Source: an uncultured Micrococcales bacterium (GTDB lineage: Bacteria > Actinomycetota > Actinomycetes > Actinomycetales > Microbacteriaceae). Taken from it: a stretch of 64,000 nt of DNA. Within the stretch, counting starts at the first letter, position 1; each line of letters starts with the position of its first letter. The stretch spans positions 1-64,000 of the forward strand of contig CAIRNX010000018.1 of assembly GCA_903880095.1 (NCBI GenBank). Reading direction: 5' to 3'. The notes beneath the pieces are model-generated. The model worked only from the letters and a program-made list of their open reading frames with translations, made no database searches and was not told the DNA's origin. Positions 27,583 to 32,123 of the stretch are shown here, piece after piece. The position numbers and the translations under genes were made by a program.

Positions 27583-28291
27583 GTTGTAGCGATTTTAGCC
27601 CGCGCTCGATGTGCCATTGGCTGTAAGCCGCGACGATTCCCGCCGCGTTTGCGCGCGATCCCTCACTTGAAGCGTCTGCGATCTCCCAGTCGCCAGAGAG
27701 CAACGCTCCAAGCAATGCTGCGGTTTCTTCGTTCATGGTTGCTGCGCCCGCAGGCTTGCAGTCGGCACAAACAACTCCGCCAAGCTGAAGCACAAAGGCT
27801 CGGTGCAGCCCGGGCTTGCCGCAAATTGCGCAGTCACCGAAGTTCGGAGCCCACCCGGCAACTGACAGGGCTCTCAGGAGGTAAGAGTCAAGAATCAGAC
27901 TGCTGTCGTGCTCTTGGCGAGAAAGCGACCTAAGGCCCCCTAGGAGCAATAAATACTGTTGCGGTGTAGATACGTCACCGGTTAGCTTTTCGGCAGTTTC
28001 AACCATTGCAGTGGCGGCTGTGTAGGTTGCGTAGTCTTTGACGATCTCTGCACCGTACGAGCTAAGCGTTTCTACCTGACTTACCGTGTCGAGGTTCTTG
28101 CCCTCGTAAAGCTGAACGTCGACAACCATGAATGGCTCAAGGCGCGAACCGAATTTTGAGCCGGTCTTACGAACACCCTTTGCCACTGCACGGATCTGCC
28201 CGTTGTAGTGCGAAAGCATCGTGACGATTCGGTCGGCCTCGCCAAGCTTGTGCGTGCGTAACACGACTGCTTCGTCACGATAGAGCGGCAT
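27566..28291 (-). CDS. recO: DNA repair protein RecO
   Basis: A 241-aa recombination mediator that loads RecA with RecR. The N-terminal OB-fold segment ([20 protein letters not shown]) is typical, and the C-terminal half has a zinc finger, CAICGKPG...CADCKPAG. The start codon directly abuts the leuA stop. The leuA-recO-uppS order is widespread in actinobacteria. Confidence 0.95.
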
Positions 28292-30052
<1,761 letters not shown>

Positions 30053-30060
30053 TTAGCCGC

Positions 30061-30105
30061 AAAAACGCACCGCAGCGAGGAAGGCCGAATTAGGCCTCGC
30101 CGCGG
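30061..30105 (-). terminator. Attenuator hairpin in the leuA leader
   Basis: On the mRNA strand CCGCGGCGAGG (30105-30095) pairs over 11 bp (one G:U) with CCTCGCTGCGG (30080-30070), followed by TGCGTTTTT, the form of an intrinsic terminator. The 5' arm overlaps the last codons of the leucine-rich leader peptide. A smaller AGGCC/GGCCT hairpin (30097-30082) is partly exclusive with it and could act in the alternative fold. Confidence 0.7.
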
Positions 30106-30131
30106 CCAATAAGCAGGAGCTCGAAGGACAC
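30090..30131 (-). CDS. leuL: leuA leader peptide (MSFELLLIGRGEA)
   Basis: A 13-codon reading frame starting GTG at 30131 and ending TAA at 30090. It encodes MSFELLLIGRGEA with three consecutive leucine codons (CTC CTG CTT, codons 5-7). It has no SD, but a promoter places the transcript start on the GTG itself, so it would be leaderless. The stop lies in the loop of the attenuator hairpin. This is the architecture of ribosome-mediated transcription attenuation: stalling on Leu codons when charged tRNA-Leu is scarce would cover the terminator's 5' arm and let RNA polymerase reach leuA. The mechanism is inference; similar leaders have been predicted for other actinobacterial leuA genes. Confidence 0.75.
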   Translation of the reverse strand: MSFELLLIGRGEA

Positions 30132-30167
30132 CTCTTCAGGGTAGCCCTTAGAAACCGAGTTTGCCAA
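30132..30167 (-). promoter_or_regulatory. Promoter of the leuL-leuA transcript
   Basis: A -35 box TTGGCA (30167-30162), 18-nt spacer and -10 box TACCCT (30143-30138) are followed by 6 nt and then the G of the leader GTG at 30131. The spacing is ideal for a housekeeping sigma factor and a leaderless start. The -35 box lies inside the end of era. Confidence 0.65.
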
Positions 30168-31035
30168 GTTGCTTTGGGTCTCGTTGCCACTCTTTGGCAA
30201 CCTTTACCCGCAGGCCGAGAAACACCTTCTTGCCAATTAGCTTCTCGATCTCTTTGCGAGATACGGCTCCGACTTCGCGAAGCCGAGAACCACCCTTGCC
30301 GATGATGATTCCCTTTTGAGAGTCACGCTCAACCCAAACGTTTGCGTGGATGTCGACCATCGACCCGTCTTCACGTTCGTTCATCTCATCGATAGTTACG
30401 GCAAGTGAGTGCGGAAGTTCATCGTGGACGCCTTCGAGGGCCGACTCACGAATCAGCTCACAAATGCGCGATTCAATCGATTCGTCGGTGACTGTATCGG
30501 TTGGGTACATGGCAGCAGATTCCGGAAAGAGCCCCAAGATCACGCCGGTCAGATCATCGAGCTGGTGACCAGCAACGGCCGAAACGGGAACGATGGCCGC
30601 CCAGTCACGCATTTGGCCGACCTCTTGCAGCTTTGCGGCCAACTGGTCACGCGAAACCAATTCGGTCTTTGTCACGACAGCAATTAGTTTGGCGCGACGA
30701 AAGTCGTTCAACTGCTCGCTGATGAAGGCGTCGCCCGGCCCGAGTTTTTCATTGGCAGGGACGCAGAATCCAATCACGTCTACCCCCGACAGCGTCTTGG
30801 CAACAAGGTCGTTTAGGCGCTCACCCAACAATGTGCGGGGGCGGTGCAAACCGGGAGTGTCGACTACGACGATCTGGCCGCCTTCAAGGTTCACCATGCC
30901 ACGAATGGCGCGCCGAGTCGTCTGCGGCTTGGCGCTTGTAATAGCGATCTTCTCGCCAACCAAGGCATTGGTTAGCGTCGACTTGCCTACGTTGGGTCTG
31001 CCAACAAAAGAAATGAAACCGCTTCGAAAGGTCAT
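30148..31035 (-). CDS. era: GTPase Era
   Basis: A 295-aa ribosome-assembly GTPase that binds 16S rRNA. The G domain has GRPNVGKST (G1), DTPGLH (G3) and TKTE (G4); the C-terminal KH domain has GIIIGKGGSRLREVG. The ATG overlaps the stop of the CNNM-family gene by 4 bp. It ends the ybeY-CNNM-era run; the leuA promoter starts within its 3' end. Confidence 0.96.
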   Translation of the reverse strand: MTFRSGFISFVGRPNVGKSTLTNALVGEKIAITSAKPQTTRRAIRGMVNLEGGQIVVVDTPGLHRPRTLLGERLNDLVAKTLSGVDVIGFCVPANEKLGPGDAFISEQLNDFRRAKLIAVVTKTELVSRDQLAAKLQEVGQMRDWAAIVPVSAVAGHQLDDLTGVILGLFPESAAMYPTDTVTDESIESRICELIRESALEGVHDELPHSLAVTIDEMNEREDGSMVDIHANVWVERDSQKGIIIGKGGSRLREVGAVSRKEIEKLIGKKVFLGLRVKVAKEWQRDPKQLGKLGF

Positions 31036-32123
31036 TCGAAGGCCTCCTGAGATTCGCTTAGTGGTGCACTTGCCTGAACCAAGACGGTGATCAGGCGTTT
31101 ACGGCGACCTTCAATGCGATCTGCAGTAAAAACTAAGCCGCTGTAGGTGACCGAGTCACCTTTGCGCGGTAGTCGTTCAAGTTCTTTGGTGAGTAACCCA
31201 CCAACGCTATCGACGTCTTCATCTTCGAGTTCAATCTCGAATTTTTCGCCCAAATCAAATAGCGCGCAACGGGCCGAAACCCTGAAGACGCCGAGTTCGA
31301 TTTCTTCGATGTCGGCGACCTCGCGGTCGTATTCGTCGGCGATGTCACCGACAATCTCTTCGATCACGTCTTCCATGGTTGCCAAGCCTGCAACGCCACC
31401 GTATTCGTCAATGATGATGGCAATGTGCGTAGCCGAAACCTGCATGTCGCGAAGCAGGTCGTCGACCGGCTTAGATTCGGGCACAAAAACTGGCTTGCGA
31501 GCTAGGTCGGCTGCAACTTTGCCGGTGATCTCGCCCTGGTACATCAATTTGGCGACGTCCTTGAGATAAAGCACGCCTACTACGTCGTCAACATTTTTGC
31601 CAATGACCGGAAGACGCGAGTATCCGCGCTCGAGAAAAAGCTTCATCGAAGCTTCTAAGGTTTCGTCGGCTTCAATTGTGGCCATATCGATTCTCGGAAC
31701 CATGACCTCACGCACGATGGTTTCACCAAATTCTTCTACCGAGTCGAGAAGCTCCTGCTCAAACTCTTCTGGTTCTTCGTTTTTGGGCAAAGAAAGCGGG
31801 GAAAACATGATTGAAAGCGAGTTGACCACGGGTTTTAGAAACCTGGCCAACCATTGCCCGAAAGAGCGGTGACCCGCGAGACGGGCGAGAACCTGAGAGC
31901 CGAGCAAAAGGGCAACCATGAGACCGAACGAAATAAGGGCAGCCCACCACCAGCGCAGACCGAGCGGACTCAGGCTTTGACCTAGCACCACACCAAATAG
32001 GCCAGTGAGCGTTAGACGCAGGAAACCAAGGGCCTCAGGCCGATTTAGTGCGGCCGACACGATTGTGAACACGACAGCGAAGACCGCAAGTATTACCGCC
32101 ACCCAAAGTGCTAGGGCGAGCAA
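31032..32123 (-). CDS. CNNM/CorC-HlyC family membrane protein with CBS pair
   Basis: A 363-aa protein. Residues 1-110 hold about three to four hydrophobic segments (an abbreviated DUF21 domain). Two CBS domains follow (VREVMVPRIDMATIEADE... and ...KPVFVPESKPVDDLLRDM), then a CorC_HlyC domain (~275-360). Family members are Mg/Co transport or efflux proteins. The DUF21 part is shorter than the usual ~190 aa. The start is TTG directly after the ybeY stop. The ybeY-CNNM-era order is conserved. Confidence 0.9.
   Translation of the reverse strand: MLALALWVAVILAVFAVVFTIVSAALNRPEALGFLRLTLTGLFGVVLGQSLSPLGLRWWWAALISFGLMVALLLGSQVLARLAGHRSFGQWLARFLKPVVNSLSIMFSPLSLPKNEEPEEFEQELLDSVEEFGETIVREVMVPRIDMATIEADETLEASMKLFLERGYSRLPVIGKNVDDVVGVLYLKDVAKLMYQGEITGKVAADLARKPVFVPESKPVDDLLRDMQVSATHIAIIIDEYGGVAGLATMEDVIEEIVGDIADEYDREVADIEEIELGVFRVSARCALFDLGEKFEIELEDEDVDSVGGLLTKELERLPRKGDSVTYSGLVFTADRIEGRRKRLITVLVQASAPLSESQEAFE

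Follow-up and report, generated by a model that had tools for sequence, protein, structure and literature searches.

A LEU element upstream of an actinobacterial leuA gene and its possible role in translational attenuation

The window (the whole stretch of 64,000 nucleotides analysed here) carries leuA, the gene for 2-isopropylmalate synthase (576 aa; 28292..30022; NCBIfam PRK03739.1, E 7.3e-269), on its minus strand, with a short leader and then era (stop codon 30150-30148) upstream of it; all features described below lie on this same strand. Read 5' to 3', they begin with TTGGCA (30167-30162), a candidate -35 box, which is followed after 18 nt by the -10 box TACCCT (30138..30143) and, 6 nt further on, by a GTG start codon (30131-30129), precisely the layout that an initial annotation of this DNA had described. 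The GTG opens a probably leaderless frame of 13 codons, MSFELLLIGRGEA* (30090..30131), that contains the Leu codons CTC CTG CTT (30111..30119), the last of which is the near-invariant CTT treated below. Its TAA stop codon (30092-30090) lies within the loop of a hairpin, P1, the 5' arm of which covers the last leader codons; both features had been annotated and can be read directly from the sequence.

The P1 stem is formed by a 5' arm GCCGCGGCGAGG (30095..30106), overlapping the leader codons G-R-G-E, and a 3' arm CCTCGCTGCGGT (30069..30080) that pairs with it and covaries with it in relatives. A stem with a T-run, as annotated, does exist, but its length had been given as 11 bp, whereas up to 12 pairs can form, two of them G-U; the run of five T (30061..30065) starts three bases past the stem and had been taken for the tail of a terminator. 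Inside the P1 loop, GGCC (30083..30086) can form the 5' strand of a putative pseudoknot, P2, with GGCU further downstream (30055..30058). This helix has just 4 bp in the window, and its GGCC can alternatively pair within the P1 loop: the competing AGGCC/GGCCT pairing noticed earlier exists, and its GGCC/GGCC portion appears in the minimum free energy (MFE) fold, enclosed by a P1 stem that has 10 pairs there. A third helix, the base stem P0, escaped the initial annotation, which also missed the identity with the published element discussed below. Its 5' strand AGCTCCTG (RNA AGCUCCUG; 30114..30121) comprises Leu codons 1-2 and the two preceding bases and is perfectly complementary over 8 pairs to CAGGAGCT (RNA CAGGAGCU; 30030..30037), which contains the leuA Shine-Dalgarno (SD) sequence. 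P0 is present in the MFE fold, with a predicted duplex energy of -14.8 kcal/mol, and the leader RNA as a whole folds better than most of 200 shuffled versions (z -3.0; 2/200 equally good).

This arrangement resembles the LEU element that Seliverstov et al. (2005; PMC1262725) reported before leuA in most actinobacteria. Its anatomy as given there comprises a leader peptide with a run of Leu, a base stem between Leu codons and SD, and a pseudoknot; the first two recur in the window alongside a putative counterpart of the third, with the helices matched by description only. In contrast to the 2005 description, promoter geometry makes the leader of the window a leaderless one, and where that paper reports the element for leuA and inside one transposase, we also find it in relatives upstream of second leuA genes as well as of leuC and leuB. 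We have very little doubt that the leader in front of this leuA is a LEU element, and it is an ordinary, well-preserved member of this known kind.

To place the window element among its relatives, we used leuA genes found in 61/67 genomes of the genus, 145/150 sampled genomes of the family and 157/158 sampled genomes of the class (E <= 0.001, fragments included). From these, 252 leuA upstream regions were extracted: a genus set of 59, a family set of 107 (27 family-sample loci and 80 named records, among them some genus members or near-duplicates and a few labelled by order only or otherwise) and a class set of 86, which includes three regions from the family. A parser with a threshold of at least 8/10 P1 pairs plus two Leu codons recognised the element in 247/252 regions (57/59 genus, 107/107 family, 83/86 class), with leader variants around LLL(L)S[GCR]R[DG]E; the leucine leader annotated in the window has similar counterparts before nearly every leuA examined. 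Removal of near-identical elements left 167 non-redundant ones (31 genus, 66 family, 70 class). A covariance model of the element matched 154/158 class genomes and, in a phylum sample, 45/198 genomes at E <= 0.1; among the genomes listed outside the class, two had matches better than 8e-4, and one of these matches (L272) precedes a leuA-like frame. Such a model should be useful for annotation, since Rfam 15 gave no match in the stretches that we searched: its covariance models had no relevant match in window positions 28000-32000 (one chance-level snoRNA hit lay elsewhere) and no match up to E 1 in the relatives L220, L066, L255 and L269.

The 5/252 regions without a parsed element are of two kinds. 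In L049 and L051, both from the window's genus, leuA directly follows the upstream frame without a leader, an apparent natural loss. L207-L209, three regions of one family, have a divergent leader, e.g., MRSSLLLTRP*, and a different P1, which the parser missed; the Leu run of this leader is followed three codons later by the stop codon. The covariance model matches the genomes of L207-L209 at E 1e-5 to 8e-5, and the site precedes leuA in two of them.

Aligning leuA upstream regions, a check that the initial annotation had proposed, revealed that the Leu codons are kept and that P1 covaries. From 62 rows picked for P1, 60 were used, and L015 and L214 were excluded because their start positions seemed unreliable. 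In the 10-bp core, 99.2% of the cells are paired (a percentage inflated by the parser's demand for 8/10 pairs, though 5/252 regions failed it), both sides change in 5/10 pairs, and 0/500 shuffles scored as high. Sliding the partners by -3 still left 72% pairing and a covariation score of 0.201 vs 0.222, but the number of cells with changes on both sides dropped from 36 to 14; other slides gave 31-55% pairing. This pattern argues firmly for P1 as a real RNA helix. A conserved arrest peptide is disfavoured, as substitutions at positions 5-6 of P1 preserve the pairing yet replace the encoded Asp by Asn, Ser or Gly.

For P2, we compared each element's own pairing between loop and downstream segment with permuted combinations and obtained z values of -3.5 in the genus set, -2.9 in the family set and -6.1 in the class set. 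Two class-set controls stayed at -0.7 and 0.1 vs this -6.1, while a family-set control (3' arm against downstream segment) came near P2 with -2.6 vs -2.9. When scored by contiguous helix, P2 reached z 2.6, 2.2 and 6.5 in the genus, family and class sets, respectively, and helices of 6-7 bp can form in 49/70 class-set elements. A first, wider version of the test did not reach significance for the genus elements (221/2000 permutations as low). Taken together, these comparisons point firmly to a P2 pseudoknot across the class and are suggestive of one closer to the window, in its genus and family.

The P0 duplex is predicted at -8 kcal/mol or stronger in 20/31 genus, 55/66 family and 54/70 class elements, and at -3.9 kcal/mol in L018. 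Permuting its two strands between elements gave values as low as the native pairing in 10, 2 and 13 of 2000 permutations for the genus, family and class sets, respectively. In the family set, the controls were flat (1029 and 1769 of 2000). The genus-set control segment gave 15/2000 vs 10/2000 for P0, the class-set control (loop against SD) gave 31/2000 vs 13/2000, and with one element per family in the class set this control, at 21/2000, even beat P0 at 41/2000. Coevolution of Leu codons and SD thus appears clean in the family set only and is confounded in the genus and class sets.

We further simulated stalling by masking the leader to 11 nt past the last Leu codon, using nested folds that ignore P2. 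In the window, the predicted probability of an unpaired SD rose from 0.0005 in the free RNA to 0.55 with the Leu codons covered. Mean predicted SD openness increased on masking from 0.20 to 0.43 in the genus set (up in 25 and down in 5 of 31 elements), from 0.19 to 0.36 in the family set (up in 45, down in 14 of 66) and from 0.24 to 0.29 in the class set (up in 30, down in 25 of 70). These gains exceeded those of leader-shuffled controls with p 6e-3, 3e-6 and 0.048, respectively. The modelled opening of the SD is clear among close relatives of the window and becomes marginal across the class.

The start of the leader shows a regular layout. A TANNNT box precedes the in-frame start of the leader by 6 or 7 nt in 57/57 elements of the genus set and 106/107 of the family set, as read by a parser that, given several in-frame starts, chooses one preceded by a -10 box (a single candidate start exists in 78/167 leaders). 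In the class set, 52/83 elements have the box within 4-8 nt of the start. The background of TANNNT at upstream positions amounts to 8/1271 and 8/2706 in the genus and family sets (0.3-0.6%) and 16/2870 in the class set. TGN precedes the -10 box in 16/31 genus-set and 55/65 family-set non-redundant elements and is absent in the window. TTGG is kept at the -35 position of the genus-set consensus, and that of the family set carries no -35 signal; since TTGGCA lies inside the coding end of era, this conservation may reflect coding, and TTGGCA itself may be a genuine -35 box. A promoter scan of the window found nothing.

An independent parallel comes from Streptomyces lividans TK24, for which a leaderless leader leuL1, MRFGLLLLSCRGEGL*, has been described upstream of leuA, with a transcript 5' end reported at the start codon and without a typical Rho-independent terminator (PMC8079986). 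This is a different species from that of the window, but the same peptide MRFGLLLLSCRGEGL was also read in loci of the class sample, L220 for example. Some class elements, L220 included, have longer spacings, so geometry alone is no proof of leaderlessness there. In the window species, the leader mRNA is probably leaderless as judged by promoter geometry, and the claim of a leaderless transcript made at the outset thus gains support both from the -10 spacing and from the S. lividans leader.

The same cannot be said of the terminator. The hairpin had been read as an intrinsic terminator, but only 3/167 elements have five consecutive T in the 14 nt that follow P1, namely the window itself (L001), L027 and L250; the two nearest sisters L002 and L003 lack them. 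Given this lack of conservation of the T-run, we rejected an intrinsic terminator as a general property of the LEU element; in the window species itself, the hairpin may still act as a weak one. A scan for terminator patterns found none, but it required a loop of 3-8 and T's no more than 2 nt from the stem and is therefore blind to the window hairpin. By a looser count, 34/167 elements have five or more T in the 8 nt just after P1 vs 23.5 expected on shuffling, a slight excess for which we have no explanation. We also considered a helix P3, in which a leader stretch that begins at the last Leu codon and extends into the P1 arm pairs with the downstream GCGGCUAA. P3 is predicted at -15.9 kcal/mol in the window and is strong in the two sisters as well; in the permutation test of its covariation, 148, 69 and 179 of 2000 permutations were as low as the native pairing (80, 10 and 857 for a wider version), and it was left out of the main model because this support is weak despite its strength in the window.

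A further regularity concerns the last Leu codon, which is CTT in 157/167 and CTC in 10/167 non-redundant elements. CTT makes up 4.5% of the Leu codons of leuA in 66 family-set genes and 2.5% in 24 class-set genes; in 19 genes of the window's genus its share is 21%, i.e., it is not rare there. CUU and CUC codons are decoded by tRNA-Leu(GAG), and a theory of codon-specific charging exists. When Leu codons were redrawn from leuA usage, P0 became weaker in the family set (p 4.6e-3) and not significantly weaker in the genus and class sets. Mere P0 pairing was rejected as the reason for the CUU preference on the strength of the latter two sets; P0 would account for it at best in part.

The 2005 paper, as far as its account goes, left the mechanism of the LEU element open, and the comparative data help to sort its parts: P1 holds up as an RNA helix, P2 holds up at class level, P0 offers direct access to the SD, and a conserved terminator is missing. 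We favour translational attenuation of leuA by sequestration of its SD over an intrinsic terminator and give this reading a probability of roughly 0.6. When charged tRNA-Leu is plentiful, ribosomes would complete the leader and leave, P1, P2 and P0 would form, and the leuA SD would be closed. When charged tRNA-Leu is scarce, a ribosome would stall at the Leu codons and cover the 5' strands of P0 and P1, upon which the SD would open and leuA would be translated. The published anatomy, the covariation of P1 and P2, the family-set coevolution of P0, the predicted opening of the SD, the rarity of the T-run, the S. lividans leader and the layout of the leuC copies described below all speak for this reading. 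Against it, we count the weak P0 in part of the genus set, the confounding of P0 outside the family, the mixed SD response in the class, the redrawn Leu codons that do not significantly weaken P0 in the genus and class sets, the weak P2 signal in genus and family, and Streptomyces coelicolor leuA codon mutations cited in PMC1262725 as inconsistent with classical attenuation.

Several other explanations compete with SD sequestration. Classical transcription attenuation, in which P1 and the T-run would form a terminator that is blocked by stalling at the Leu codons, was itself judged unlikely in PMC1262725. The window offers what it needs, a P1 stem of up to 12 pairs followed by T5 3 nt later and a strong competing P3 helix, and the loose T-richness points in the same direction. 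The rarity of the 5-T run (3/167, with neither L002 nor L003 among them), the weak covariation of P3, the S. lividans leader described without a typical terminator and the negative pattern scan (blind though it is to this loop and T geometry) make us regard it as quite unlikely. A conserved leader that lacks a conserved T-run would suit a role of Rho: stalled or missing ribosomes on the leader would alter the access of Rho to the leader RNA and thereby set leuA transcription, as was suggested in 2005 for cys leaders that likewise lack a conserved T-run (PMC1262725). The evidence for P0 and P1 does not need Rho, and we consider its involvement unlikely, if worth keeping in mind.

The 2005 authors themselves favoured a protein regulator, with orthologues of ML1624 that contain a DEAD-box domain as their proposal (PMC1262725). 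Such a regulator would bind the pseudoknot, with translation of the leader being incidental; their phylogenetic-profile argument and the cited codon-mutation result favour it, as does the fact that the P1 arm conserves RNA and not peptide. The 247 elements, however, share their start spacing, reading frame, Leu codons and the position of the stop codon, all of which would be superfluous for a pure protein-binding site, so that we view this explanation as improbable. The idea that a short frame and a hairpin merely happen to coincide here, with no regulatory element involved, has next to nothing left to recommend it: recurrence in 247/252 leuA upstream regions puts the element beyond chance, and the covariance model finds it in 154/158 class genomes at E <= 0.1.

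Other actinobacterial leaders offer partial parallels. Leu leaders before leuA have been named in Corynebacterium diphtheriae and C. glutamicum. The mycobacterial polycysteine attenuators of Canestrari et al. (2020, as cited in PMC13236596) are likewise reported as leaderless, amino-acid-sensing upstream frames that control a downstream operon; they differ in sensing cysteine and in serving other genes. The ilvB1 attenuator of Mycobacterium tuberculosis (PMC13236596) shares a branched-chain leader peptide and alternative RNA structures with the element studied here, but it has a Rho-independent terminator, precedes another gene and involves no pseudoknot in the account given there.

Copies of the element are not confined to leuA. 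In a family sample of 72 genomes, the covariance model (E <= 0.01) gave 126 matches, of which 70 precede a leuA gene (first or second copy), 48 precede leuC and 8 are others. The leuC copies occur in 48/69 family genomes with a leuC hit (E <= 1e-100). Four of the eight other matches precede second-leuA-like frames, and L279-L282 (E 3.2e-4 or worse) were taken as chance because their neighbouring frames are unlike leucine genes. We read 26 leuC copies (L253-L258 and L289-L308, the latter being 20 of the 48), and in 26/26 a -10 box precedes the start by 6-8 nt and the leader is laid out as it is before leuA, with CTT as the last Leu codon in 25/26. In the 19/26 loci for which the leuC start was found, the P0 test gave a weak 107/2000, and simulated stalling raised predicted SD openness in 14 loci and lowered it in 4. 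The identity of LeuC and LeuB was assigned by NCBIfam on one locus each and otherwise by protein search or by eye. In the window's own genome, neither the covariance model nor a reading by eye revealed an element before leuC or leuB.

In a class sample of 74 genomes, 65 matches lie before leuA, 10 before leuB (at most 800 nt upstream of it on the same strand), and 11 were assigned to neither gene. None of these 11 adjoins a leuC hit in a by-eye comparison; the two of them that were read precede second leuA genes. Nine leuB copies from several families of the class were read (L259, L262-L264, L266, L268-L271), and in their leaders Ile and Val codons occur alongside those for Leu, e.g., MLWSVRILSCRDEAR*. 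A literature search, a weak one given that most subscription journals were outside its reach, returned no report of leuC or leuB copies; relative to the literature searched, the leuC copies, the leuB copies (10/74 class genomes) and the CUU bias of the last codon may be new. The copies before leuC and leuB, if borne out, would make what looked like a peculiarity of leuA a leucine switch for the whole pathway, and the near-invariant CUU yields a sharp prediction about a single tRNA. We tentatively propose, at clearly less than even odds, that the LEU element serves Actinomycetes as a module for translational attenuation specific to leucine, with a leaderless start, that acts on leuA, second leuA genes, leuC and leuB and would sense the charging of tRNA-Leu(GAG) through the near-invariant CUU before the pseudoknot.

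Two smaller observations accompany these copies. A small frame of ~20-35 codons ending in ...ALQESMDRRDQGG was seen by eye between the element and leuB in L262, L264, L269, L270 and L271; it had no NCBIfam match in two examples and no Pfam match above the cut-off in three. Second leuA genes with LEU elements of their own occur in L260, L261, L265, L267 and L275-L278, and several of these elements have an altered P1 arm, CCGCCACGG.
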